The notes beneath the pieces are model-generated. The model did no database searches. It was not told the DNA's origin and worked only from the letters and a program-made list of their open reading frames with translations. A program made the position numbers and the translations under genes. A DNA stretch of 64,000 bases from the NCBI RefSeq assembly GCF_000224785.1, contig NZ_AGAV01000003.1, forward strand, positions 186,001-250,000, in the 5' to 3' direction. Within the stretch, counting starts at the first letter, position 1. Each line of letters begins with the position of its first letter. Positions 7,172-61,417 of this stretch are shown here, piece after piece. Source of the stretch: Lentibacillus jeotgali. GTDB taxonomy: Bacteria > Bacillota > Bacilli > Bacillales > Amphibacillaceae.

Positions 7172-7499
7172 TTATACATAAGCTAAGATTTGTTTTTTCC
7201 GGAACATATATCTTATTTCACCTTTTGAGGGGGAACTCTTAATGCATGGCTGGAAAGTACAGGCTGATAGGAGAATTATGGAAGAAAGGGAAGCCGCAAG
7301 ATTGTTCGATTTTCCCTGTGTCCTGGAATAACGGTTTGTCTTCAACTCCGTTGAGGAAGTTATATTCATATTCCAAAGTTTTACCCCTTGGGACTTTGCA
7401 TTGGCCAAAGGGTTTACTACGGTAAATTAAAAAGGAATTGTTCCATTATAGGGCCAGATTGTGGAAGACTAGAACATAAAATTTTTTGTGCAAAACATG

Positions 7500-7528
7500 T
7501 TTACAAACATATAAAAACGTGGTATATA
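7500..7528 (+). promoter_or_regulatory. SigA promoter of heat-shock locus 1
   Basis: TTTACA and TATATA separated by exactly 17 bases, placed so that transcription would start at the edge of the CIRCE operator. Two other promoters in the window (near 13.5 and 14.8 kb) have the same architecture and almost the same spacer, ending in GTGGTATATA or GTGATATATA. Confidence 0.8.
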
Positions 7529-7539
7529 AAGAATAGAAG

Positions 7540-7566
7540 TTAGCACTCATATTTACCGAGTGCTAA
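7540..7566. promoter_or_regulatory. CIRCE operator 1 (HrcA binding site), perfect
   Basis: A perfect consensus CIRCE, TTAGCACTC-N9-GAGTGCTAA, 11 bases past the -10 hexamer. CIRCE binds the HrcA repressor, which is released on heat shock. It should control the mini-ORF and hsp20 genes downstream. Confidence 0.95.
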
Positions 7567-7590
7567 CAACACATCATAAAGGAGTGGTTA

Positions 7591-7722
7591 ATGATGACTA
7601 GATTGATTCCTTTCAACAAAAGGGTTCGAGGTCTCAGTAGGGACGGGCCGGGGAATTTTATCAACATGGTTGGCGACTTCTTTCATGACCCGTGGTTTAC
7701 GAATAGAAACCCAATGATTTAA
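7591..7722 (+). CDS. 43-residue Hsp20 N-terminal-like mini-protein
   Basis: A complete short frame with an AAAGGAG ribosome site, directly behind CIRCE. Its sequence follows the first ~40 residues of the Hsp20 gene 69 bases downstream: LIPFN near the start, then a loop, then a NFINMVGDFFHDPWF stretch matching NPFNMIDDFFDEAFSDF. It stops where the alpha-crystallin domain would begin. It may be a truncated hsp20 duplicate, or a functional helper or leader peptide. A similar, more decayed frame precedes the second hsp20 at 13.6 kb, which favours an ancestral arrangement over accident. Confidence 0.6.
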   Translation: MMTRLIPFNKRVRGLSRDGPGNFINMVGDFFHDPWFTNRNPMI

Positions 7723-7790
7723 AACAAAAATCACCACTCATTAACTGAATGAGTACAACAATTAAAATTTTATAAAAGGAGTGATTAATA

Positions 7791-8264
7791 ATGGCTGGAT
7801 TGATTCCTTTCAACCGAAAAAATCGTAATGTGGTTAGTGCAAGCCCAAGGAATCCTTTCAACATGATTGATGACTTCTTTGATGAAGCCTTTAGTGATTT
7901 CCCGTCCCTTAGAAGAAACTTGACTACAGACCCATTCAAGGTTGATGTAAGGGAAACCGACAACGAATACCTGGTTGAGGCTGAACTTCCAGGGGTAAAA
8001 AAAGAAGACATTAATGTCAATTTAAGCGACGACGGTAGGCTTTCTATTGCTGTAAATCGAAACGAGGATGTTGAGAGCAAAGACGAAGATGGTAATTATA
8101 TTCACAGGGAACGTCGTTCTAAGGCTATGCAACGTTCTCTTTATTTGGAAAACGCCAAACCAGATGGCGTCAGTGCAAGGTTGGAAGATGGTTTGCTCAA
8201 AATTAATGTGACCAAAGAAGAACAGGCGAATAACGATAACACGCATAGGGTAGAAATCGAATAG
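7791..8264 (+). CDS. Hsp20/alpha-crystallin small heat-shock protein 1
   Basis: A 157-residue small heat-shock protein, an ATP-independent holdase for unfolding proteins. The N-terminal arm (residues 1-45) has LIPFNRKNRN and NPFNMIDDFFDEAF. The alpha-crystallin domain (~50-145) contains DPFKVDVRETDNEYLVEAELPGVKKEDI and the signature LEDGLLKINV. The short C-terminal tail ends HRVEIE, containing an IxI/V-like VEI. AAAGGAG lies 7 bases upstream. Control by HrcA is expected from the perfect CIRCE ahead of the mini-ORF. A close paralogue lies at 13.8 kb. Confidence 0.92.
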   Translation: MAGLIPFNRKNRNVVSASPRNPFNMIDDFFDEAFSDFPSLRRNLTTDPFKVDVRETDNEYLVEAELPGVKKEDINVNLSDDGRLSIAVNRNEDVESKDEDGNYIHRERRSKAMQRSLYLENAKPDGVSARLEDGLLKINVTKEEQANNDNTHRVEIE

Positions 8265-8343
8265 GTCACAAAACGCCTGTTACCCCTTGAACTCTACATT
8301 ACTTAATGTAGGGGGCTCCCTTAATAAATGGGGGTGATATAAC

Positions 8344-8571
8344 ATGATTTTACAAGTGATACAAGAACAATACGAGGCTCTTATGAAGTCACATTTGCCT
8401 CCAAAACGTAAAAATCAAATGCTTGGTGTTTTGATGTCACGGCTAGAAGAATCATTTTATGTTAGTCCGTTTGAAGAACATCCAGATGAAAGGGTGATGG
8501 CCCTGTATAAAAAGATTAATCAAAGCAGAAAAAATATACAAAAACAAGGAAATGACGTGGCAGAAAATTAA
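8344..8571 (+). CDS. Uncharacterised 75-residue protein
   Basis: A small, charged, probably helical soluble protein without signal or membrane segment (MLGVLMSRLEESFYVSPFEE in the middle, basic C-terminal helix). GGGGGTGAT lies 5-9 bases before the ATG. It lies 79 bases after hsp20, before the terminator, so it is likely the last gene of the heat-shock transcript and may be heat-induced. I do not recognise a family. Confidence 0.6.
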   Translation: MILQVIQEQYEALMKSHLPPKRKNQMLGVLMSRLEESFYVSPFEEHPDERVMALYKKINQSRKNIQKQGNDVAEN

Positions 8572-8589
8572 ATTGAAAAAGGTTGTCAA

Positions 8590-8621
8590 AGTAAGCCCCC
8601 GCTTGACCACGGGGGCTTACT
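8590..8621 (+). terminator. Intrinsic terminator of hsp20 unit
   Basis: Perfect 11-bp stem AGTAAGCCCCC with GGGGGCTTACT around a 10-base loop, followed by TTGTTGATT. It closes the first CIRCE-controlled transcript. Confidence 0.8.
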
Positions 8622-8713
8622 TGTTGATTCAATGAGCAAAAATACCAAAAAGGGTTATGAATATTTTGCAGGGTAAGGTTAAAGATATTTATAAAACCTT
8701 GGAGGAATATCTT

Positions 8714-9727
8714 ATGAATACACAGCCTAATCCTGAATTGACCTCGGCTGAAATCGCAAGTCTTTGGAGTAATTATTTAAGCGATTCAATGGCTGTACAG
8801 ACTATTAGTTATACATTGAGCCAGGTTGAAGATGAAGACATACGCTCTGTATTGGAGTTTGCTTTAAGTTTATCCCAGCAACACGTCCAATTTATCGAAA
8901 ACCTGTTTACCAATGAGCAAATTGCTGTACCCGATGGATTTTCAACCCAGGATGTGAATTTAAACGCACCAAGATTATACACCGATGATTTTTTCCTCTT
9001 GTATATCCAAAACTTAGGGAAATTAGGTATGACTACCTATACGATGGCTTTATCTAATGCCGCACGTTCTGATATTGTGCAATATTTTAAACAAAACTTA
9101 AGCACATCTGCAGACTTACTGGATCAAGCCACGCAAGTAAAATTAACAAAAGGGATTTTTTCAAGAGCCCCCTATATTCCCAAACCTGAAAGGGTCGAAT
9201 ACATTAACGACCAACATTATTTGAGTGGGGGATGGTTTAGTGACAAACGCCCGTTAAATGCCATTGAAATTACGAATTTATATTACAATATTGAAAGGAA
9301 TAGGGTGGGTGCAGCGCTGATTATGGGATTTAGTCAGGTAGCCCAATCGCCAGAAGTTCGAAAGTATTTGGTACGAGGACGGGATATATCAGAAAAACAC
9401 GTGAATATTTTCAATAAAATTATGCACAATGACCATCTTTCAACACCGTCAGTATGGGATGCTCAACCAACGGATTCAACCGAATCTCCGTTTTCGGACA
9501 AACTTATGATGTTCCATATTACAACAATGAACACAGCCGGGATTGGTCAATATGGGGCGGCAATTGGATCCAGTCAAAGGACTGACTTGATTGCAACGTA
9601 CACTCGTCTTACAGCTGAAATTGCGAAATACGCCGAAGATGGTGCTAATCTTATGATTAAAAATCGATGGTTGGAAAAACCGCCCCAAGCACCGGATCGA
9701 AATCAAATTGCAAGAGATAAGGGTTAG
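8714..9727 (+). CDS. DUF3231 family protein
   Basis: 337 residues, two tandem helical repeats of the DUF3231 family (related to coat-F/ferritin-like four-helix bundles): the first at residues ~8-150 (NPELTSAEIASLWSNYL, SQQHVQFIENLF) and the second at ~165-320 (RPLNAIEITNLYYN, SEKHVNIFNKIM). The ATG is chosen because GGAGG sits 8 bases upstream; an ATG 57 bases earlier has only a weak site too close. These proteins occur in spore formers, but their role is unknown. The next gene follows nine bases after the stop. Confidence 0.82.
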   Translation: MNTQPNPELTSAEIASLWSNYLSDSMAVQTISYTLSQVEDEDIRSVLEFALSLSQQHVQFIENLFTNEQIAVPDGFSTQDVNLNAPRLYTDDFFLLYIQNLGKLGMTTYTMALSNAARSDIVQYFKQNLSTSADLLDQATQVKLTKGIFSRAPYIPKPERVEYINDQHYLSGGWFSDKRPLNAIEITNLYYNIERNRVGAALIMGFSQVAQSPEVRKYLVRGRDISEKHVNIFNKIMHNDHLSTPSVWDAQPTDSTESPFSDKLMMFHITTMNTAGIGQYGAAIGSSQRTDLIATYTRLTAEIAKYAEDGANLMIKNRWLEKPPQAPDRNQIARDKG

Positions 9728-9736
9728 GTCTTATGA

Positions 9737-10192
9737 ATGGATAAATTGCTGTGGAGCATCGCATTACCTGGTTTTGGCCAATTATTAAATAAAAAATACA
9801 TCAAAGGGATTGTACTAATTTTCTTAGTGTTTTTGGTCAACGTACAGGGAAACTTTAACGAGGTCATCCTTCTAAGTTTTCATGGGGAGATAGAAAAAGC
9901 GATTCAATATGCAGATTATCAGTGGCACATGTTCTATCCTTGTTTATACTTTTTTGCCATGTGGGATGCCTTTAAAGATGCAGGTGGCGGAAAAAAGCCA
10001 TATTCCTTTTTACCATTTGTATTTTCAGCCTATTTTGTGACTGTAGGAACGATCTATTCATCTAAACTAACTTTATTCAGCATATTGCTCGGTCCAATTT
10101 GGCTTCCAATATTAAGCGTCATTCCGGGTTTGGTTGTGGGATTCTTATTGCAGCACATCATGATGATAAAAAAGCTGGCTAATCAGTTTTAG
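9737..10192 (+). CDS. Small multi-pass membrane protein
   Basis: 151 residues with four to five hydrophobic segments. The N-terminal LPGFGQLLNKKYIKGIVLI resembles the TM2-type motif PGxGQxxxxxxxKG found in small membrane proteins of Firmicutes. The ATG lies nine bases downstream of the DUF3231 stop, so the two genes probably form one unit. No enzymatic motif is seen. The function is unknown. Confidence 0.6.
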   Translation: MDKLLWSIALPGFGQLLNKKYIKGIVLIFLVFLVNVQGNFNEVILLSFHGEIEKAIQYADYQWHMFYPCLYFFAMWDAFKDAGGGKKPYSFLPFVFSAYFVTVGTIYSSKLTLFSILLGPIWLPILSVIPGLVVGFLLQHIMMIKKLANQF

Positions 10193-10763
10193 CTTTTGCA
10201 TCAGGGGGGTCACAGGCTTGGGTATTACCAACTTTATTCCTTTAACGGGTGCCTTTCCGTATCAGCGCGCGTATTGTACATAAGGGGGTCCTACCGACAT
10301 TTTGACATCTAACCCGCGCTAAGCCACTTTCTTCCATATGAATCCTTATTATAGGCTCGTTAAGGGGTAATTTTATAATTCTACGCAAAAATCTCACCTC
10401 ATTAAACCCCTTTTAGAAGCTATGATTCTCCCACTTAGGGCAGTATTTTATCGTAGAATCCATCTACGCTATTTTTAGGTCATTTTTGTAAGAAAATGGA
10501 TTAGCGTTGTTTTTTTGTCATTATGTTGGCAAGACCGCTATTTCTTCAACTGTTAACTTTTTTTATCAATATTGCGTATTTTTTGTATTCTGTAGACTGA
10601 ATATTGCGGTATCCAAAATCCATGGAGCTGTACAATTAACCAATTTTTAGATTGCTTATTCAACAGGATGTTCCAGGATGCAGCTTGATAATTTAATTTA
10701 CTTTAGCCTTTTACATCAAGTGTCGGGGGCTTATTTTTTATGTCCAAGATTGAGTATCTTATT
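10193..10763. other. 571-bp intergenic stretch, no gene seen
   Basis: AT-rich and full of short T-runs. I find no open frame with a ribosome site, no convincing terminator and no known RNA motif. It separates a rightward membrane-protein gene from a convergent leftward gene. Confidence 0.5.
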
Positions 10764-11927
10764 TTAACCATCTTTGGTTTCGTTTCTTTCTTCATCTTGC
10801 TGACCCCGATAGTATTTGGAACGTTGGCTTTGTCGGTATCCATACATAATGTTTCGTACCATTTCTTCGTTTTCAAGGCCGACACCAATTGATCCCGCAA
10901 AAGTTGCTATGGAAGTGGCCAACCAGGCCAATTTTGTATAATTCCAGAAGCTAACAGATTCGTTTAAATCACCTAATGATTGAAATAAATCCGGCGGAAC
11001 AAACAAAAGGACTGTCAGCAGGAATAATACAAAAAGCGTAATATAGTAACATAATACTGCTACTGTTAAAGTAGCTACTGTTGTTCGGTTATATAATTTT
11101 CTGACAGCTTTATCATTATTTATAGCTGGCTTTTCCCACAGATTATGCGAGATGATAATCCATACCACGATACTGAAGATTGCACCAACCATTAAGCCCA
11201 AAAAGCGAAAAAGTTCAAATGCTCCACTTAACTTCCATAAAGTAGGGAAAATAAGGCCATAAGCCCCTGTAGCAAAAGCCACTGCAACGACAGGCTTAAA
11301 TGATGGAATAATGCCCCATGGGCGATTTGCATAGGTCATTCCCGCTAAAACACGCAGTTTAGCCTGAAAACGTGGGCGAATAACAAGATGCAGATCCATT
11401 TTTTTACCCATAGGGGTTGAATGTTCACGACGAATCAGTGAAAACAAAAATTGTCTGGATACAGCGCCTTTTTCACGATCAGACATGCCTTCTTTTGCGG
11501 TAACAGCAGTTTTTTTCATACTATTATTCGATTGATGGCTGTGTAACTCTTTTACAACTTGTAGCAATACTTTCCTTATGCGTGCGGTTAAAGGAAAAGA
11601 TCCAAATGCTGGAATCGATATTTGCCCGACTTGCCGATTATAATCACCATCTGCCACGACCAAATCCTTATCATCAAACAATGGGAGGTCTGTTAAACAT
11701 ATGGCAAAATCCCAGTTTTTTTGCTTTTTTATAGACTCAGTTTCCTCCATCAGTTCTTGCGTGTCTTCAGCTGAGCCAATAAGAGGGTCTGTTGTAACTT
11801 CAACAGACCATTTGACTTGATCTGAAACCTTTGCAGATAAGAATTCAGGTAATTTATTTTTGAAACTTTTAGCTAATTTTTCTGGCGTATCGGGACAAGG
11901 AATAAGTCCAATAGTTAATCGTGACAA
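10764..11927 (-). CDS. Uncharacterised soluble-plus-membrane protein
   Basis: 387 residues. The N-terminal ~200 residues look cytosolic and alpha/beta-like (TIGLIPCPDTPEKLAKSF, WDFAICLTDLPLFDDKDLVVAD). About four to five membrane segments follow (from ~215: PVVAVAFATGAYGLIFP, then ~245-270, 295-320, 345-365), with a basic C-terminal tail. AGGTGAGG lies before the ATG. Homologues are often annotated as methylene-tetrahydrofolate dehydrogenase in my recollection, but no FolD motif is visible and I do not support that name. The function is unknown. Confidence 0.65.
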   Translation of the reverse strand: MSRLTIGLIPCPDTPEKLAKSFKNKLPEFLSAKVSDQVKWSVEVTTDPLIGSAEDTQELMEETESIKKQKNWDFAICLTDLPLFDDKDLVVADGDYNRQVGQISIPAFGSFPLTARIRKVLLQVVKELHSHQSNNSMKKTAVTAKEGMSDREKGAVSRQFLFSLIRREHSTPMGKKMDLHLVIRPRFQAKLRVLAGMTYANRPWGIIPSFKPVVAVAFATGAYGLIFPTLWKLSGAFELFRFLGLMVGAIFSIVVWIIISHNLWEKPAINNDKAVRKLYNRTTVATLTVAVLCYYITLFVLFLLTVLLFVPPDLFQSLGDLNESVSFWNYTKLAWLATSIATFAGSIGVGLENEEMVRNIMYGYRQSQRSKYYRGQQDEERNETKDG

Positions 11928-12097
11928 TTACCTCACCTCCAATAAATATAAGAATTGGTTCATTTTATTTACCCGATTTTTTTGAATAAACACATAGTGA
12001 AAATTTACAATTCATTAACTCGCTGGTCTGAAAAGTAGGTACCGTCAAGAAGTTTGTGTAAATAAATAGGATACTCCTCAGAATAGGTGGTGTTGGT

Positions 12098-12141
12098 ATT
12101 TTCAGATATTATCCCGGGTACCCGGGATAATATCTGAAAAT
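12098..12141. repeat. Perfect 44-bp palindrome
   Basis: Two 22-bp arms with no loop, centred on CCCGGGTACCCGGG. The right arm is the end of the transposase coding sequence and the left arm is its exact inverted copy. The duplicated arm supplies the stop codon of the transposase. It could be a fold-back duplication or an assembly artefact. Confidence 0.85.
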
Positions 12142-13332
12142 TCGATCGTTTGTGATCCGCTGTGCTTGCCGTATCTCGTTTCAAACATTTCCTGTAACGC
12201 TTGATAAGCACTTGCGAAGCCTCTGAGCTTCCGCTCTGACCATCTTTGGTTATATTCGGTTGATTGAAGGTATACCACCTTTTCTGCTGCCTTTTCACTG
12301 GGAAGGCTGTTCATCGTTTTTTGTACGCTTCTTGATTTCCTTCATCGTCCGCTCAATGATATTCGTGGTATAAATCATGCGCTGGATTGATGAGGGATAT
12401 TTCAAGAATGTCAGAAGCACATTTAAGTCCTCTTCCCATGATTTGACGACTTTTGGATGCTTGCCTTGCCAGTTCTCTTGAAAAGTTTTAAATTGACTCA
12501 TGGCTTCTTCACTCGTGCTGGCCTCATAAATAGCCTTTAAATCCTCGGCTACAGCTGTTTGATCCTTTTTACGAACGGCGTTGATGGCATTACGAACTTT
12601 ATGTACCACACAGCGCTGGACGTCAGCCTTTGGATAAATTTCTTTCATCGCTGCTTCAAGTCCGGGCAGGCCATCAAAAACACCAAGCAACACTTCCTCA
12701 ACACCCCGATTGTAAAGATCGCGGAGAATTTCTTTCCAGCCGAGTGAGCTTTCCTGGCCACCGACATAGAAACCGAGAATCTCGCGGTAACCGTCTTCAG
12801 ACACACCGATGACCAAGTACACGACTTCATTGGCGACATCATCGCGGCGCAGCTTCAGGTAAGTCCCGTCAAGATAAAGGATTGAATAACGTTTCTTTAG
12901 TGGGCGCTGCTGCCATGTTTCGATATTTTCGAGTGTAACGTCTGTGATGTTACTAACCGTTGTTGCCGAATAAGCAGAGCCCAGCATGTGCTCAATCATT
13001 TGCCCGATTTCACGCGTGCTGACACCTTTCTGATACATTCTCGTTACCGTTTCGCCAACCCATTGATCACGGCGTTGGTAAGGTGAGAACAATTCCGTTT
13101 GAAATTCACCATGGCGGTCGCGGGGCACAGCAAGATCATCAATATGGCCGTGCTTGGTATCAAGCGTTCGTTTGTAGTAACCATTTTTTACTTGCTTCAA
13201 TTCAGGATGTTCTTCGTTGAAAAACTGTTCCCTTTCCTCTACCAAAATCGTTTCGAGCTGGTCTTTGACAAAATCACGTACAAGACTATCCAGTTGATTC
13301 ATAAAGCCATCATTCGTTATACTTTGAGTCAT
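12102..13332 (-). pseudogene. IS256 transposase, frameshifted
   Basis: A Mutator/IS256 DDE transposase. The first frame covers residues 1-345, with LYLDGTYLK (first Asp), GVFDGLPGLEAAM (second Asp) and QRCVVHKVRNAI, plus TTNIIERTMKEIKKRTK near its end. At a run of six A (coding strand) about 1 kb from the start, the frame shifts; the C-terminal helix continues in the next frame as MNSLPSEKAAEKVVYLQ and FASAYQALQEMFETRYG. The start ATG follows GAGGAG. IS256 elements are not known to need frameshifting, so I read this as inactivation or a sequencing error in the homopolymer. Confidence 0.85.
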
Positions 13333-13484
13333 GGTAGGGTTTCTCCTCTCTCTATTTATAGCCAATTCCGAGGGTACCCTACCTCTTTTTTTGTCTCAAA
13401 GAATTTACACAAACTATTTTACGTCATCGAAAAGTAAAAAGATATAAAAAATTATTTAATAAAAATGTAACTCCAATAATTATG

Positions 13485-13513
13485 TTTATAAATATATTAA
13501 AATGTGGTATATA
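13485..13513 (+). promoter_or_regulatory. SigA promoter of heat-shock locus 2
   Basis: TTTATA and TATATA with a 17-base spacer ending AAAATGTGG. It is nearly the same sequence as the promoter of locus 1 and the leftward promoter near 14.8 kb. It begins about 70 bases beyond the IS256 end. Confidence 0.75.
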
Positions 13514-13524
13514 AAAAATAGAAC

Positions 13525-13551
13525 TTAGCACTCGGATGGTTCTAGTGCTAA
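13525..13551. promoter_or_regulatory. CIRCE operator 2, one mismatch
   Basis: TTAGCACTC-N9-TAGTGCTAA: the left arm is perfect and the right arm has one change (T for G at its first base). It is placed as in locus 1. It should bring the mini-ORF remnant and second hsp20 under HrcA. Confidence 0.9.
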
Positions 13552-13586
13552 GTCAGAGAAAATATTAAGAAAGGAGTTGATTTATT

Positions 13587-13673
13587 CTGATTAAATTTAT
13601 TCCTTTTAGTATGATGGAAGACTTTTCAAACGGATTTTGGTTGAGGGGAAGGGTGCCCTTGGATAGGGCTTAG
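13587..13673 (+). pseudogene. Remnant of Hsp20-like mini-ORF
   Basis: A 28-codon frame behind CIRCE 2 reading IKFIPFSMMEDFSNGFW after a CTG where its counterpart at locus 1 has ATG. AAGGAG lies 10 bases before that CTG. It again mimics the Hsp20 N-terminus (IPF, then hydrophobic DFF-like segment) and stops early. It could still be translated from CTG or an upstream ATT, but I treat it as decayed. Confidence 0.45.
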
Positions 13674-13779
13674 CAAGCATTTTAATTGAAAGTTTATCTC
13701 TTTTTGTAATATGAAATTCACCTCCGTTAGTATTGAAATGAAGTGCTAATGTCAATATTTATTTGAAAAGGAGTGAGTC

Positions 13780-14256
13780 ATGATGTCAAGTTTAATACCT
13801 TTCAATAGAAAAAATCGAAATGTATCAAATGTGACACCAACAAACCCTTTTAACATGATTGACGACTTTTTTGATGATGCTTTTAAAGATTTTCCATTGG
13901 CCAGAAGAAACCTTGTTACAGATCCGTTCAAGGTAGATATTCAGGAAACAGATAATGAATATTTAGTAGATGCTGAACTTCCAGGGATAAAGAAAAATGA
14001 TATTGATGTCACGTTAAATGATGAAGGTCGTTTAACTATCTCGGTGAACCGGGAAGAAAATGTTGATACGAAAGATGAAGATAACAACTATATTCATCAA
14101 GAAAGACGTTACGATTCAATGCAGCGTTCACTCTTTTTGGCAAATGCCAAGACCGATGATGTAAAGGCGAAGCTAGAAGATGGATTGCTGAGAATCACTG
14201 TGGGTAAAGATGAACAAGCAGTGAAGGATAATTCACGTAAAATTGAAATTGAATAA
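13780..14256 (+). CDS. Hsp20/alpha-crystallin small heat-shock protein 2
   Basis: 158 residues, clearly paralogous to the 157-residue Hsp20 at locus 1: the same LIPFNRKNRNV start, NPFNMIDDFFDDAF, DPFKVDIQETDNEYLVDAELPGIKK and LEDGLLRITV, and the tail ends KIEIE. An ATP-independent holdase is expected. AAAGGAG precedes two adjacent ATG codons; the second has the better 9-base spacing. The gene lies about 230 bases downstream of CIRCE 2 and is followed by a strong terminator. Confidence 0.92.
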   Translation: MMSSLIPFNRKNRNVSNVTPTNPFNMIDDFFDDAFKDFPLARRNLVTDPFKVDIQETDNEYLVDAELPGIKKNDIDVTLNDEGRLTISVNREENVDTKDEDNNYIHQERRYDSMQRSLFLANAKTDDVKAKLEDGLLRITVGKDEQAVKDNSRKIEIE

Positions 14257-14265
14257 TGTTGTACA

Positions 14266-14301
14266 AGAAAAGCCTCACGGTCAATTTCGCGAGGCTTTTC
14301 T
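14266..14301. terminator. Terminator between hsp20 and convergent gene
   Basis: Stem AGAAAAGCCTC with GAGGCTTTTCT, loop of 14 bases including a CG/CG extension. It has A- and T-rich flanks, so it can work on both strands between the convergent genes. Confidence 0.75.
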
Positions 14302-14333
14302 TTGGTTATTATTAGTTTTAGACTATTTACCGA

Positions 14334-14741
14334 TTAACACATCAATTGAAAAAAATTTTGATTTCGATTATTTGGGAGAATGTCATATTTATGACCATAT
14401 TGTTTGATTATTTCATGAATCATTTTGTAACCAATTTCGTCACTTCTATAGGAAGGATTAACTGAAACGTGTTGGATAATCACGTTTACGTCACTTTTAA
14501 TTTTAAAACCAATTGCTCCAATAATATTATTTGACTGTTTCCAAAGATAAAGATGCCAATTAGGGTTATTCTCATATTGGTCAACAATTTCTTGTAATGA
14601 TTTGATATCTCTTTTATTCAACGTGAATGAAAGAAGACCCATCGCAATTTTTCTGTAGCATTTTTTATAACGAATTAACATACAGTTTGAACTCTCCCTA
14701 ACAGGTGACGGATTTGTTCTATCAAGAACTATTGCAACCAT
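14334..14741 (-). CDS. RibT-like GNAT acetyltransferase under CIRCE
   Basis: From residue 21 (MLIRYKKCYRKIAMGLLSF) onward the protein follows RibT, the small GNAT-type acetyltransferase of the riboflavin operon: LWKQSNNIIGAIGF, then IIQHVSVNPSYRSDEIGYKM (acetyl-CoA loop region; RSDEIG replaces the usual RxxGIG) and a C-terminal LPNNRNQNFFQ. A ribosome site (AAAGGAG, 8 bases) supports a start 20 codons earlier, giving the extra N-terminus MVAIVLDRTNPSPV. The MLIRYKK start has a weaker site. No rib genes are nearby. The upstream CIRCE and promoter imply heat induction of this copy. The substrate is unknown. Confidence 0.7.
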   Translation of the reverse strand: MVAIVLDRTNPSPVRESSNCMLIRYKKCYRKIAMGLLSFTLNKRDIKSLQEIVDQYENNPNWHLYLWKQSNNIIGAIGFKIKSDVNVIIQHVSVNPSYRSDEIGYKMIHEIIKQYGHKYDILPNNRNQNFFQLMC

Positions 14742-14767
14742 CCAAATCACTCCTTTAAAGAAAGTTT

Positions 14768-14794
14768 TTGGCACTCAAAAGAGGTGAATGCTAA
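14768..14794. promoter_or_regulatory. CIRCE operator 3, one mismatch per arm
   Basis: TTGGCACTC-N9-GAATGCTAA, with the 9-base spacing kept and a single change in each arm. It sits between a leftward promoter and the RibT-like gene. Confidence 0.8.
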
Positions 14795-14802
14795 TTATTT
14801 TT

Positions 14803-14831
14803 TATATATCACATTTTAATCATTTTGTAAA
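14803..14831 (-). promoter_or_regulatory. Leftward SigA promoter, third heat-shock copy
   Basis: On the minus strand TTTACA and TATATA with a 17-base spacer ending AAAATGTGA. It is almost identical to the promoter at locus 2 but in opposite orientation, with CIRCE 3 just downstream. Confidence 0.75.
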
Positions 14832-14977
14832 TTAATTTACATTTAAAAAACTATATATTTTTATTTATGATAAAATGGTAGTGACTGTGCCACGAACGGG
14901 CGCAGTTGCCGAACAATTGTGTGTTGAAGTTGGGCCATTGAATAAAAAAAGAAGAACCTACGACGAATTTTGGGGGT

Positions 14978-35440: not shown

Positions 35441-35488
35441 TCTTTTTATAAAGCTAGAGTGTATACTTAAAGAAATATAACAGTATTA

Positions 35489-35557
35489 AAGGTGATGGGG
35501 TTCACCATTAACCGCCATTGGCTAATGACTCCTGCTGGTATTTTTACTTGCAGGAGT
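35489..35557 (+). promoter_or_regulatory. Fluoride riboswitch (crcB motif)
   Basis: The aptamer core is GGTGATGGGGTTCACC, then TTAACCGCC, then GGCTAATGACTCCTGC, matching the crcB/fluoride motif (GGxGATGGxGTTCxCC, AACCGCC, TGATGACTCCT). The expression platform is an ACTCCTGC/GCAGGAGT hairpin followed by a T-rich tail, so fluoride binding should free transcription into the two crcB genes. Confidence 0.92.
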
Positions 35558-35605
35558 CTGTTTATTTTCAAATGGGGAAATTTTAAATATTTAGAGGAGG
35601 TAATT

Positions 35606-35977
35606 ATGCTTTATTTATGGATTGGTATTGCTGGAGCTTTGGGGTCTATTTTAAGATACTTAATTGGAATTACCTTCACACATAACATTTTTCCTTATAC
35701 AACGTTAATTGTCAATTTGTCAGGAAGCTTTTTGTTAGCTTGGCTGACAACAGCTTTATTTAAAAGAATTTCTATTTCGCCAATGGCGGAAAGTGCAATA
35801 GGAACGGGTTTTGTTGGTTCATTTACAACCTTTTCAACTTTAAGTGTAGAAACCGTTACGATGTTTAAAAATGGGTATTTATTATTAGGAATTGTATATG
35901 TGGTTGTAAGTATTGTAGGTGGTTTGTTAATGAGTCGGTTAGGATTTAAAGGAAGAAAGAATGTCTACAAGGCGTGA
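35606..35977 (+). CDS. crcB: CrcB fluoride channel subunit 1
   Basis: 123 residues, four membrane segments. Typical Fluc features: GALGSILRYLIG at the N-terminus, the Asn-containing TLIVNLSGSFLLAW and the GFVGSFTTFSTLSVE motif with the Phe/Thr/Ser ion-track residues. The ATG follows GAGGAGG by 5-6 bases; the longer upstream frame is riboswitch sequence. It exports fluoride passively as a dual-topology dimer. Overlaps the next crcB by 4 bases (GTGA). Confidence 0.93.
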   Translation: MLYLWIGIAGALGSILRYLIGITFTHNIFPYTTLIVNLSGSFLLAWLTTALFKRISISPMAESAIGTGFVGSFTTFSTLSVETVTMFKNGYLLLGIVYVVVSIVGGLLMSRLGFKGRKNVYKA

Positions 35978-36345
35978 CATTTATATACATATTTTTAGTT
36001 GGTATAGGTGGTTTTGCCGGAGCTATTGCTCGTTTTTCGATTAGTAATGCTTTAAACAAATCTGAATATTCAATTCCAATTGGCACCCTCACGGTAAACT
36101 TATTGGGAGCTTTGCTTTTGGGTGTAATCACGGGCTTAAAGTCAGAAGAAATTGCTTTATTATTTGGAACTGGTTTTATGGGAGCATTTACAACGTTTTC
36201 AACCTTCAAATTTGAAGCAATAAAGCTGCATCAAAAGCAGAAGAAATCATTTGCCTTTTATATCATAATACCCTATGGCTCAGGCATTGTTCTTGCTTTC
36301 TTGGGGTATGTGATTGGAAAAACGTTTTATAGATTTTTTATGTAA
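35974..36345 (+). CDS. crcB: CrcB fluoride channel subunit 2
   Basis: 123 residues, GTG start overlapping the stop of the first copy. Motifs GGFAGAIARFSISN, TLTVNLLGALLLG and GFMGAFTTFSTFKFE match Fluc. In genomes with paired genes, the two subunits often have opposite fixed orientations and form a heterodimer; charge distribution here was not computed. Both are expected to be under the upstream fluoride riboswitch. Confidence 0.93.
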   Translation: MTFIYIFLVGIGGFAGAIARFSISNALNKSEYSIPIGTLTVNLLGALLLGVITGLKSEEIALLFGTGFMGAFTTFSTFKFEAIKLHQKQKKSFAFYIIIPYGSGIVLAFLGYVIGKTFYRFFM

Positions 36346-42236: not shown

Positions 42237-43409
42237 ATGAAACGGTATTGGAGATTAATCGCAATTGTCACAATTGTCGTTCTGACCATAGGAACGTTCT
42301 ATATACAGTCAGCAATAGCAGCGGTCAGTTATTCGGAAATCAAGATTGAAAAGATAAGCGGCAATGAGGAACTGATCGAACCAGTCATTCTAAATGGCAG
42401 TTATAATACTGGAACTGGCATGAATGTAGCTATTAACGTGACGCCTGATGGTTCTGAATATATCAGAAATCAGTCATTTTTTGAGCGTATTCAAGGAATG
42501 TACAGCAATGAGGTCAAGCGACTGCAGGAGGAATACCGCAGCTTTATGCGCGGAAAATCCGGGAGCAACACTTCCTACCTGGAAACAGAGGATACGCTGG
42601 CCTCTGCTGAAGTGATTAATCAGTCAGTACGCGGTTCAGACAGTGGTGATATGGAATTTGATATTGCCGTTCTGAATAAGGAAAATGGTGAAATAACATC
42701 ATTCACAGTGTCAGTACCAAACAGGGCAATGTATGCACAAGTTTTCGTTGAAGATGTACAAATGGCAGACGATACATTGAAGGTAGTTACGCGCAATTAT
42801 TCCAAAGATGGCGAGAATGCACTCTATATGTATCATTTCGATATGACGAATCAGGAAATAACCGGAGATAAAAGAATTGCAATTACCGGTGACAATGGAG
42901 AAAATGCTGGGAGTCACCTTATGATTGAGCCTGAATCAGATCAGACAGCACCAAGTGAATATATCATTTTCAGTAAAGACAGCCCGGGCGGTCAGGATGT
43001 GCAAGAATATATTGTATATAACCTGGAAACGGGAGACAAGCAGCAATTGGAGACCCCGGAAAAGTTATCTGGGGATGCACTCCTTTCTGACAAGGAACAT
43101 CTTTATTTCAATACCGGAAATCAAATTGTGCAGTATAATATTGAAACAGATGAAATGACAGCTGAAATAGACCTGCCCTCACAGGACACCAGTAATGGTG
43201 ATATGCAGCGGAATACACGACCGCTGCTACATGTAACAAATGATAAAATGTACCTGCTTACGGCAAGTCCCGGAAAGAAAATAGGTCAAAATATAACGAT
43301 TATTGATACAACGTCAGGCGAAACATTATACAATGGGAAGCTGACGATTGAGAAGCCTGTTGACCAAAATGAATCATTGCATATATTTGATATTCAGGTT
43401 GGCTCTTGA
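42237..43409 (+). CDS. Membrane-anchored extracytoplasmic protein of ytr-like operon
   Basis: 390 residues. One N-terminal membrane helix (LIAIVTIVVLTIGTFYIQSAIAA), then a large outside domain rich in beta strands with repeated short blocks (VVTRNYSKDGENALYMYHFD, LSDKEHLYFNTGNQIVQYNIETD) suggestive of a beta-propeller. The ATG follows AAAGGAG by 8 bases. It is the last gene of the operon, so it may sense or present the transporter's substrate. No family is recognised with certainty. Confidence 0.7.
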   Translation: MKRYWRLIAIVTIVVLTIGTFYIQSAIAAVSYSEIKIEKISGNEELIEPVILNGSYNTGTGMNVAINVTPDGSEYIRNQSFFERIQGMYSNEVKRLQEEYRSFMRGKSGSNTSYLETEDTLASAEVINQSVRGSDSGDMEFDIAVLNKENGEITSFTVSVPNRAMYAQVFVEDVQMADDTLKVVTRNYSKDGENALYMYHFDMTNQEITGDKRIAITGDNGENAGSHLMIEPESDQTAPSEYIIFSKDSPGGQDVQEYIVYNLETGDKQQLETPEKLSGDALLSDKEHLYFNTGNQIVQYNIETDEMTAEIDLPSQDTSNGDMQRNTRPLLHVTNDKMYLLTASPGKKIGQNITIIDTTSGETLYNGKLTIEKPVDQNESLHIFDIQVGS

Positions 43410-43539
43410 TTAAAATCTAAGGCTGCCATTTAAAAAGTACTTATGGCAAAAAAACCAGATAAATGAAAAAGCACTTGTAACCCTCTTAAAGTGAAAGTAT
43501 AAATCAAATCCACAATAGCGAGGCGCTACAAGTGTATTT

Positions 43540-44640
43540 TCATTCTATCCCTTCGTCCTCCAAAATCTTTGATAGTTTTTTTACATCAACCATAAGGTTT
43601 TTGATGACTTCATGTGTTCTGGAACCGGGATTCGCATTCCTGCATTTCAGAAGATAATAATCCAAACCTAAATACTGTCCAATTTTTACGAATTCGTCTG
43701 ATGTTGAGGTGAATAATTGAATGATTTTCGTTCCCGGCTGACAGAACATAATATTTGCTAATCCTGCACCATTCGGGCTTATGATTACGTTGGCTGAAGA
43801 AAATATATCAATTTGCTGCTGCACAGTTAAGGAACTCAGCACAATTTTTTTAAACCCCTTTTTGGTCAAAAGTTTCATGAGTTTGGGCTCATTGGCAACT
43901 TTTCGCCAAGAAGCATCTTCCCGGCTGATATAGATGCGGTCATAGCCATTTGAGCTTGTATGGCGGCCTTCCTTCAATAAGGTGTTCCGGAGAAAATCAA
44001 CTGTCCACTTCACAGAGGTTCCTGCATTAAATGGTATGGATGGCAAAATTAAGTTTTCAGCTTTCACGTGTTTTCCCGGAGTAAGTTGTAAGATCTTATC
44101 CTCAGGGATGCCGAGCATTTCAACTGTTTCCCGTTGGAATGGTAATGTCAGGGGCGGGAGCACATATTTATCGATCTTAAAACCGCTGAGCTGAAGCAAA
44201 TGATACCGCCCTAATGTATCATGCAGCCAATGCCAGTAATTGGAATGCCCAGCCCATGCTAAAACACCTAATGTGCCATAATAAGGGGAGGCAGGAGGTA
44301 TTTGATCAAACGCAGTCTTATTAAAATATCTCCAATATAAATGAAAGACCATGTCATGCAAACACTTGTAATCAGGTGTCAGTGCGTACACCATGCCTTC
44401 TCCTTTATCGCACATCCATATGCTTCCATCTTGAATCTTTGAAACATAAGACTTGTAAAATTTGTGACTCTCCCCGAACTGTGGCGGATACACCCAATCA
44501 ACCCATTGCGGCGGATCTCCTTTGGGAAGCGTATACGTTACTGATTCGTTTGTATAGAATTCCTTATAAACATCTTGTATATCTTCTATTTTTGTGTTTT
44601 TGTCTATCCATTCTTTTGTATGAACATATAAATCCTGCAT
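43540..44640 (-). CDS. Glycosyltransferase family 61 protein
   Basis: 366 residues of the DUF563/GT61 type. LGVLAWAGHSNYWHWLHDTLGR in the middle and SSANVIISPNGAGLANIMFCQPGTKIIQLF near the C-terminus are the family signatures; RIYISREDASWRKVANEP lies between. GT61 enzymes add xylose, GlcNAc or related sugars. It begins the surface-glycan region, opposite in orientation to the next genes. Confidence 0.85.
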   Translation of the reverse strand: MQDLYVHTKEWIDKNTKIEDIQDVYKEFYTNESVTYTLPKGDPPQWVDWVYPPQFGESHKFYKSYVSKIQDGSIWMCDKGEGMVYALTPDYKCLHDMVFHLYWRYFNKTAFDQIPPASPYYGTLGVLAWAGHSNYWHWLHDTLGRYHLLQLSGFKIDKYVLPPLTLPFQRETVEMLGIPEDKILQLTPGKHVKAENLILPSIPFNAGTSVKWTVDFLRNTLLKEGRHTSSNGYDRIYISREDASWRKVANEPKLMKLLTKKGFKKIVLSSLTVQQQIDIFSSANVIISPNGAGLANIMFCQPGTKIIQLFTSTSDEFVKIGQYLGLDYYLLKCRNANPGSRTHEVIKNLMVDVKKLSKILEDEGIE

Positions 44641-60639: not shown

Positions 60640-60935
60640 TTTAAATAAAAAAATCCTCTGCAAACACATATAGAATGTGAATGCAGAGGACGATTGCGAC
60701 CGCGGTGCCACCTCTTTTGGAGATATAAACAAAATCTCCATCTTTGTTTGGATACGGGAATTTCATCCTTCCGATATCCTATCCGTATAACGGCGGAGCC
60801 CCGTGTTTCCATACTAAGATTTCAGGAAACCTCTCGTAAGTCCATTCAGCAATTATTCACGTGCCGGTATTCCACCACCACCGGCTCTCTTGGACGCTTC
60901 AAGAAAGCTTACTCCTCTTACTCGTTGATTTAATG
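60640..60935 (-). promoter_or_regulatory. Proximal Trp T-box leader
   Basis: T-box elements on the minus strand: AAGAGAGCCGGTGG (AG bulge and distal stem-I loop), specifier region GCTGAATGGACTT with TGG (Trp) at complement of 60842-60844, the conserved GGTGGCACCGCGG antiterminator (60700-60712), and a terminator stem TGCAGAGGA/TCCTCTGCA followed by T7. Uncharged tRNA-Trp should favour read-through into trpE. Confidence 0.93.
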
Positions 60936-60954
60936 TTTGCAGTTTTTAGAGTCA

Positions 60955-60995
60955 AGTTGGTTTTGCACCGAGTTTACGAAGGTGCAAAACCAACT
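60955..60995. repeat. 15-bp perfect inverted repeat before the tandem array
   Basis: AGTTGGTTTTGCACC and GGTGCAAAACCAACT around an 11-base loop. The right arm overlaps the first tandem repeat unit (ACCAACT), so array and hairpin share sequence. There is no T-run, so it is not an ordinary terminator. Confidence 0.85.
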
Positions 60996-61115
60996 CGTGC
61001 GAGAAGACCACCAACTCGTGCGAGAAGACCACCAACTCGTGCGAGAAGACCACCAACTCGTGCGAGAAGACCACCAACTCGTGCGAGAAGACCACCAACT
61101 CGTGCGAGAAGACCA
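60990..61115. repeat. Six perfect 21-bp tandem repeats
   Basis: Six identical 21-bp units, each with a CTCGTGCGAG core that can form a 4-bp stem, ending exactly at the edge of the distal T-box region. They lie in the transcribed leader between two T-boxes. On the minus strand one frame reads Trp-Ser-Ser-Arg-Thr-Ser-Trp per unit, but no start codon precedes it. Confidence 0.92.
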
Positions 61116-61132
61116 CTGTTTTTACTAAAATA

Positions 61133-61395
61133 CAAAAAGGTTCCCCATCCGAAAAGGACGAGGAACCCGTGGTGCCACCTTTATTAACTGAAAAACAGCT
61201 CACTTTGGCCATATCGAGCATTTTTGCTCAATAGTGTCTCGTGTAACGATGAGACCTGGTCGCCAAAGCCTACTGCAAAATTGGTTCGGTCTGGAAGCTC
61301 GGAAGTCCATTCATCCAACGTACACACCGGTTCACACCCGCCACCGGCTCTCTTAAGTGCAACAAATAGATTACTACTCTTCGTCTTTGCTTTGT
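61133..61395 (-). promoter_or_regulatory. Distal Trp T-box leader
   Basis: A complete second T-box on the minus strand: AAGAGAGCCGGTGGCGGGTG, specifier region GATGAATGGACTTCC with TGG at complement of 61307-61309, T-box AAAGGTGGCACCACGGG, and the terminator GGTTCCTCGTCC/GGATGGGGAACC followed by TTTTTG. It is transcribed first. Both leaders have the same Trp specifier, so full operon expression requires passing two tRNA-Trp checks. Confidence 0.95.
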
Positions 61396-61417
61396 TCGAA
61401 TTAATTTATTGTTATCC

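Follow-up and report, generated by a model that had tools for sequence, protein, structure and literature searches.

A probable horizontally acquired small heat-shock protein block with its own predicted HrcA operators in Lentibacillus jeotgali

The class I heat-shock regulon comprises the hrcA-dnaK operon and groESL, controlled by HrcA through an operator named CIRCE (controlling inverted repeat of chaperone expression). HrcA represses while GroEL is free, and lets go on heat or protein stress. Here we describe positions 7465-14903 of a 64,000-nucleotide (nt) stretch of Lentibacillus jeotgali DNA, in which two hsp20 genes and the gene of a RibT-like acetyltransferase lie downstream of predicted promoters, each followed by a CIRCE. 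The whole stretch, G000:C29:186001-250000 of a 3.78 Mb genome, is called the window. The likeness to the class I regulon is found in the operator sequence and in its position right after the -10 box, whereas the targets differ: they are the hsp20 genes and, on the same transferred DNA, a paralogue of RibT. The locus is probably a horizontally acquired small heat-shock protein (sHsp) block, which brought its own predicted HrcA operators. The transmissible locus of stress tolerance in Enterobacteriaceae is likewise transferred DNA that includes small heat-shock genes, but its carried genes and regulation differ from those described here. Our block has no large Clp ATPase, since the longest open reading frame (ORF) listed is 387 amino acids (aa).

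CIRCE 5' of an sHsp gene, as in the block, has been published for two lactobacilli. The hsp16 gene of Lactobacillus acidophilus has a perfect CIRCE, and the excerpt of that paper mentions a -10 box, TNTGNTATAAT, which resembles the block promoters (PMC3179173). According to an excerpt of a second paper, hsp1 of Lactobacillus plantarum was 3.16-fold up at 28 °C and changed by -1.38 at 40 °C in an hrcA mutant, and is also under the control of CtsR (PMC3842655). The block carries two hsp20 copies, each with a short ORF of the Hsp20 N-terminal type in front, and neither excerpt mentions a leader for the two Lactobacillus genes. What is new is the block, as transferred DNA, and the leaders, as ORFs of N-terminal type only; the link between CIRCE and sHsp genes is known already. 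Among the open-licence papers listed by word searches, most of them off topic, none described an Hsp20 N-terminal-only leader ORF, or CIRCE in Lentibacillus.

The window was scanned for CIRCE allowing up to 3 mismatches, with 100 shuffles as control. Three operators were found against 0.05 expected, and none of the shuffles reached three. The operator TTAGCACTC-N9-GAGTGCTAA is matched at 7540-7566 on the plus strand (CIRCE 1, 0 mismatches), at 13525-13551 on the plus strand (CIRCE 2, 1 mismatch) and at 14768-14794 on the minus strand (CIRCE 3, 2 mismatches, one per half). This count supports the original prediction, made from the letters alone, that HrcA-type operators are gathered locally in front of two hsp20 genes and the gene of a RibT-like GNAT acetyltransferase. 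All three promoter boxes were likewise found as it had described them, with CIRCE after each. Promoter 1 (7500-7528, plus strand) has TTTACA at 7500-7505, a spacer of 17 nt, and TGG-TATATA with the -10 box at 7523-7528; promoter 2 (13485-13513, plus strand) has TTTATA, 17 nt and TGG-TATATA; promoter 3 (14803-14831, minus strand) has TTTACA at 14831-14826, 17 nt, and TGA-TATATA with the -10 box at 14808-14803. The spacers thus end in GTGG, GTGG and GTGA, which can be read as an extended -10 (TGN). A fixed distance from the -10 box to CIRCE had also been claimed, and this was not found: the distances measure 11, 11 and 8 nt at sites 1, 2 and 3. A general sigma-70 scan gave 25 sites versus 25.9 in shuffles, and the three promoters are unlisted there since the scan requires a T ending the -10 box; it speaks neither for nor against them.

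The whole genome holds five CIRCE. The two outside the window stand 5' of hrcA and groES, the identity of which is supported by Pfam HrcA and Cpn10, respectively (HrcA, E 1.3e-53, being encoded just after the CIRCE at C18:195101). The hrcA promoter was assigned by a promoter script whose score favours TG, and reads TTGACA-17-TAATTT with TG before the -10 box and 10 nt to CIRCE.

The genes hsp20-1 (157 aa, 7791-8264) and hsp20-2 (158 aa, 13780-14256) are both on the plus strand and both match Pfam PF00011, the alpha-crystallin domain scoring 66.4 and 71.8 bits, respectively, versus a curated cut-off of 20.8. They are 69% identical, and start 224 and 228 nt after CIRCE 1 and CIRCE 2. The claim that two of the modules drive paralogous hsp20 genes rightward is correct as to paralogy and direction, but a short ORF comes first in both. 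The third module runs leftward into the RibT-like GNAT (136 aa, 14334-14744, minus strand), as had been predicted; RibT of Bacillus subtilis is the sole PDB sequence match of ACETYLTRANSFERASE at E ≤0.001 (5xxr, E 6.1e-27, residues 22-133).

Comparisons were made with 159 genomes of the family and 397 genomes of the order. GNAT relatives (E ≤1e-12) are found in 157 of the 159 family genomes, with roughly 41-58% identity among the matches listed. The other RibT copy of L. jeotgali is located at C18:20251 between the genes of a cyclophilin and scpA, and the same neighbourhood is found in G044; the window GNAT is not in this usual neighbourhood. Related in sequence to RibT, the window protein differs in being a second copy with another neighbourhood, a CIRCE promoter and an N-terminal extension, about 20 N-terminal residues lying outside the stretch matched by relatives.

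We propose that the locus works as two cassettes, each made up of promoter, CIRCE, Hsp20-N-terminal-like ORF and hsp20, together with the CIRCE-bearing RibT paralogue. Transcription would start from sigma-A-type promoters with a weak -35 box and an extended -10, and the operator would lie over or just 3' of the likely transcription start. HrcA, encoded elsewhere under its own CIRCE, would bind at all three sites and keep the genes repressed as long as GroEL is free; on heat or another protein stress the repression would be released and the genes induced. Since genes and operators move as one, the block would join the host HrcA regulon wherever it lands. A chaperone set which spreads between species with its operators would be a simple route to immediate correct regulation of a transferred gene.

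A local HrcA sub-regulon of small heat-shock genes and an acetyltransferase gene had been considered unusual, which is weakened both by the two published cases of CIRCE on small heat-shock genes, as excerpted above, and by related loci. With Hsp20-1 as query, 16 loci were found in the genome collection; CIRCE with up to 4 mismatches lies close 5' of hsp20 in 10 of them (L011-L020, all Bacillota), and at this threshold none lies close 5' in the remaining 6 (L010, L021-L025). Within the family, the Hsp20 group consists of 10 genes in 8 of the 159 genomes, with CIRCE at 6 of the 10, plus one in Oceanobacillus sp. J11TS1. At E 1e-25 in the order, the group was found in the genome studied alone (1/397). 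The identity of hsp20-1 is 72, 71 and 69% to the proteins of J11TS1, G044 and G056, and 55-58% to those of G115 (another genus), G018 and G114.

The exact pattern GTGRTA followed by CIRCE occurs in 17 of the 159 family genomes. In 14 it stands before an htpG-like ORF (L036-L043, L047-L052; one of the 14 confirmed by Pfam), and in the other three, L. jeotgali, another Lentibacillus (G051) and G056, at hsp20 or GNAT. The HrcA regulon of this bacterial family thus appears often to take in htpG; the pattern demands GTG, so the share of htpG promoters without GTG is not measurable by it. A search of related genomes for the whole trio, proposed with the original prediction, returned the third site in G051 as well as in L. 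jeotgali, but these are only 2 of the 159 family genomes by the exact pattern, and they share it by recent transfer.

The block is 99.3% identical by blastn to DNA found in another chromosomal place of G051, where 7465-12037 and 13429-14903 match at 99.3% over 4575 and 1475 bp. Identical positions number 4483 of 4497 in coding and 1527 of 1546 (98.8%) in intergenic DNA. An IS256-type element at 12038-13428, with a transposase (Transposase_mut, PF00872) at 12295-13365 on the minus strand, is absent in G051, and the two G051 matches overlap by 8 nt, as for a target duplication. In L. salicampi (G050), 7772-12037 is found at 98.6% (4267 bp) and 13429-13484 at 100%; the match starts 19 nt 5' of the hsp20-1 start, and its other side abuts sequence like window 43400-43549 (82%), perhaps the end of an insertion sequence. 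The trp operon identity to L. jeotgali is 67-73% in G051, 78-80% in L. salicampi and 73% in G044. The left flank of the block in L. jeotgali maps to other places in G051 and L. salicampi at 65-86%. Aligned locally with G051, the left flank scores 39, where 200 simple shuffles reach 32 at most. From the 99.3% identity of the block, intergenic DNA included, against 67-73% for the trp backbone of G051, we conclude that horizontal transfer was recent, which by this measure means that the block moved recently between species.

In G051 the block comes after mutS and mutL, and after a group II intron (L083:473-3112; Rfam RF02004, RF00029) which ends exactly at the left edge of the block. DNA of 7465-12037 is found in 26 plasmid records, and the matches listed (20) are all at the DUF3231 gene, at 66-71%; relatives of the hsp20-1 protein are found in 3 plasmid records, at 41-45%. 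Phages gave no match to 7465-14903, and neither an inverted repeat nor a target duplication is clear at the block ends.

On the right, the block ends inside an 18-nt repeat core, TGTGCCACNANCGGGCGC, which is part of a dispersed-repeat copy at 14883-14958 (plus strand). Copies of TGTGCCACNANCGGGCGC with at most 1 mismatch number 8 in L. jeotgali, 9 in G051, 12 in L. salicampi and 2 in G044, while the reversed pattern gives 0 in all four. A repeat profile, built from 20 copies including the one at the right end, has 16 matches in the window at E ≤10 and 11 at E <0.01, against 0 in the reversed window and five shuffles. These 11 are all on the plus strand within 10233-36471, and some copies stand directly before plus-strand ORFs (17168, 17538, 26060). 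The repeat unit is about 85 nt long, with the core TGTTCCATNANCGGGCGC followed by GGAATAA and then GGGCCA. Judged by these repeats, window 10233-36471 looks like a gene-cassette array with recombination-site-like repeats in a Bacillota genome, and no description of such an array was among the papers listed by a word search of the literature. The left end of the block in L. jeotgali resembles the 3' part of the repeats by eye, but is not detected by the profile. DNA hairpins of six repeat copies have z-scores from -1.63 to 0.96 and no common fold. We infer that the block was exchanged at dispersed repeats. A more far-reaching reading, which we hold to be rather unlikely, is a repeat-bounded mobile heat-shock cassette of halophilic Bacillaceae with its own HrcA operators, plus Hsp20-N-terminal microproteins that join or cap the sHsp oligomers encoded downstream.

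Leader ORF 1 (43 aa, 7591-7722, plus strand) resembles the N-terminal region of Hsp20 and has a good ribosome-binding site. It is 54% identical to the Hsp20 N-terminus of G056 over 37 aa (E 6e-9 in a search of the loci compared and E 5.2e-8 within the genome of G056), 42% to hsp20-1 and 52% to hsp20-2. The alpha-crystallin domain is absent from the leader ORFs, the alignments covering the N-terminal region and ending before the domain. Leader ORF 2 (28 codons, 13587-13673, plus strand) has the same length as the G044 leader and aligns with it without gaps, having CTG where G044 has ATG. By rounded counts, 11 of 15 synonymous versus 17 of 66 nonsynonymous sites differ between the two (p 0.0016). 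A 48-codon leader is found in the same place in J11TS1, and altogether 6 of the 7 CIRCE-hsp20 cassettes have leaders (two each in L. jeotgali and G051, one each in G044 and J11TS1; not G056). Used as a query on the family, leader 1 gave 10 matches in 6 of the 159 genomes, 2 being leader 1 itself (L. jeotgali, G051) and 8 being hsp20 N-termini; the query missed known leaders (leader 2 in L. jeotgali and G051, and that of G044), so absence by it means little. Translation of the short ORFs, if it occurs, would provide a natural test of the sHsp N-terminal region acting alone. The stretch between leader 2 and hsp20-2 (13674-13779) also holds a half CIRCE, AGTGCTAATG, possibly a second operator or an RNA element.

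Several observations weigh against the reading of the locus as an acquired block with its own HrcA operators and leaders. At the third site, only 8 nt, not 11, separate the promoter from CIRCE, and CIRCE 3 has a mismatch in both halves; its conservation is uninformative, because it is known solely as two near-identical copies (L. jeotgali, G051). The likely groES boxes of L. jeotgali show no extended -10, and hsp20-1 is kept in L. salicampi without CIRCE or leader. The G051 leaders are near-identical to those of L. jeotgali, leaving four distinct leaders, a tiny sample. Leader 2 has CTG and no ATG, and G056 has CIRCE-hsp20 without a leader. The stretch 3' of leader 2 (13674-13779, L029:1395-1500) is the same as in G044 at 82 of 106 positions, and the leader itself at 53 of 81; the conservation around leader 2 may therefore be of DNA or RNA, the downstream stretch being the more conserved. 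The last three of these findings, and the greater likeness of leader 1 to the G056 N-terminus than to the neighbouring hsp20-1, would fit leaders that are decaying remnants of an upstream hsp20 copy, retained by chance. To this we give close to an even chance. Against it, frame, length and ribosome-binding site are kept between leader 2 and G044, with the synonymous excess given above, and the J11TS1 leader sits in the same place. The conserved stretch 3' of leader 2 would also suit the proposal that this stretch, together with the short ORF, is an RNA thermometer or attenuator for hsp20 and not a peptide gene. For cassettes 1 and 2, the predicted ensemble leaves little of the hsp20 ribosome-binding site open (0.05 and 0.04 unpaired at 37 °C), but when the upstream part is shuffled in the four leader-hsp20 gaps, 15, 14, 96 and 42 of 100 shuffles pair the site equally or more. 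The G044 site is open, a temperature of 45 °C shifts cassettes 1, 2 and J11TS1 by ≤0.05, the fold z-scores of 5 stretches range from -0.06 to -0.83, and no Rfam family reaches its gathering score within the block. We consider this proposal very unlikely. An RNA thermometer in the leader-hsp20 gap was rejected as a candidate, temperature-labile pairing beyond chance not being found. Sub-threshold Rfam matches number 8, the best having E 0.00061 (a microRNA family, 33.9 bits versus a gathering score of 60), and were taken as chance.

The origin of the three promoters was considered on the basis of local alignments of the 100 nt 5' of CIRCE, compared with 500 dinucleotide shuffles. The promoters do align, as the original prediction expected: pairs 1-2, 1-3 and 2-3 score 33, 25 and 27, each reached by 0 of 500 shuffles. 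When the three are compared with the promoters of hrcA and groES in L. jeotgali, all six scores are ordinary (188-497 of 500 shuffles reach them). Of the claim that the spacers are alike beyond what CIRCE needs, the similarity beyond chance stands, but the GTGG or GTGA end can be read as an extended -10, as at hrcA. A promoter-core pattern was drawn up after inspection from the three window sites and the sequence of G115. If up to 3 mismatches are allowed, it matches only the three window sites in the whole 3.78 Mb, and site 3 uses up all 3 of them. In the 397 order genomes, at a limit of 2 mismatches, it matches two sites in L. jeotgali and one in G199, the latter at chance level because the reversed pattern gives 6 matches. 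Such confinement, and the promoter scores, are expected if one promoter-CIRCE module was copied locally and put to further use, most recently for the acetyltransferase; the stretch 3' of CIRCE in pair 1-2 also beats 500 shuffles, and the best tree joins hsp20-1 with hsp20-2 (support 28/19). However, a near-identical core, TTTACAACCATATTAAAATGTGGTATATAAA, precedes hsp20 in G115, where the 3.5-kb locus has no CIRCE even when 4 mismatches are allowed, and this core scores 32, 30 and 22 against sites 1-3 (0 of 500 shuffles reach each). Furthermore, hsp20-1 is no closer to hsp20-2 than to the hsp20 of J11TS1, G044 and G056, and in the Hsp20-group tree neither hsp20-2 forced together with G044 nor hsp20-1 with J11TS1 is rejected (p 0.31 and 0.24). 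The stretch 3' of CIRCE 3 is weakly like the other two (14 and 75 of 500 shuffles reach the scores), and the same picture is expected if two old lineages were brought together. Local duplication, as originally claimed, is thus possible, but the tree, the protein identities and the G115 and G044 promoters do not demonstrate it, and we lean somewhat against it. To us the core has the look of an old promoter of hsp20, with the operator as an optional part. The two can be separated, since G115 has the core without CIRCE, and G044 has CIRCE and a leader ORF with a different promoter, TTGACT-18-TATATT; in J11TS1 and G056, GTGGTA is present with other spacings. The promoters could alternatively be read by sigma-B, the consensus of which is GTTTA and then TGGTAT, and CIRCE would then add a second layer of control. 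Promoter 1, promoter 2 and the J11TS1 promoter have GTTT, followed by GTGGTA 16, 16 and 14 nt further (counted by eye), but promoter 3 has ATTT and TGATAT, so the pattern suits promoters 1 and 2 only. The G044 promoter keeps the 11-nt distance to CIRCE with its other boxes, and the 17-nt spacing with an extended -10 suits sigma-A; control by sigma-B is therefore highly improbable.

The other genes of the acquired sHsp block lie between the two cassettes. A 75-aa ORF (8344-8571, plus strand), also found after hsp20-1 in L. salicampi, matches nothing in Pfam or NCBIfam at E 0.001. It is followed by the gene of the DUF3231 protein (8657-9727, plus strand), a possible stress gene, a relative of which stands beside CIRCE-hsp20 in G056 (L088:3733-4746). 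A 151-aa protein (9737-10192, plus strand), hydrophobic by eye, and a 387-aa protein (10764-11927, minus strand), the C-terminal half of which is hydrophobic by eye, have no Pfam match. Elsewhere in the window, a fluoride riboswitch is located within 35482-36345, followed by the genes of two small membrane proteins, of which the first matches Pfam CrcB. Two minus-strand T-box leaders precede the trp operon at 60683-61396, and on the plus strand of the same stretch an overlapping frame contains five full copies of RARRPPT, reflecting a short tandem DNA repeat between and under the T-boxes.

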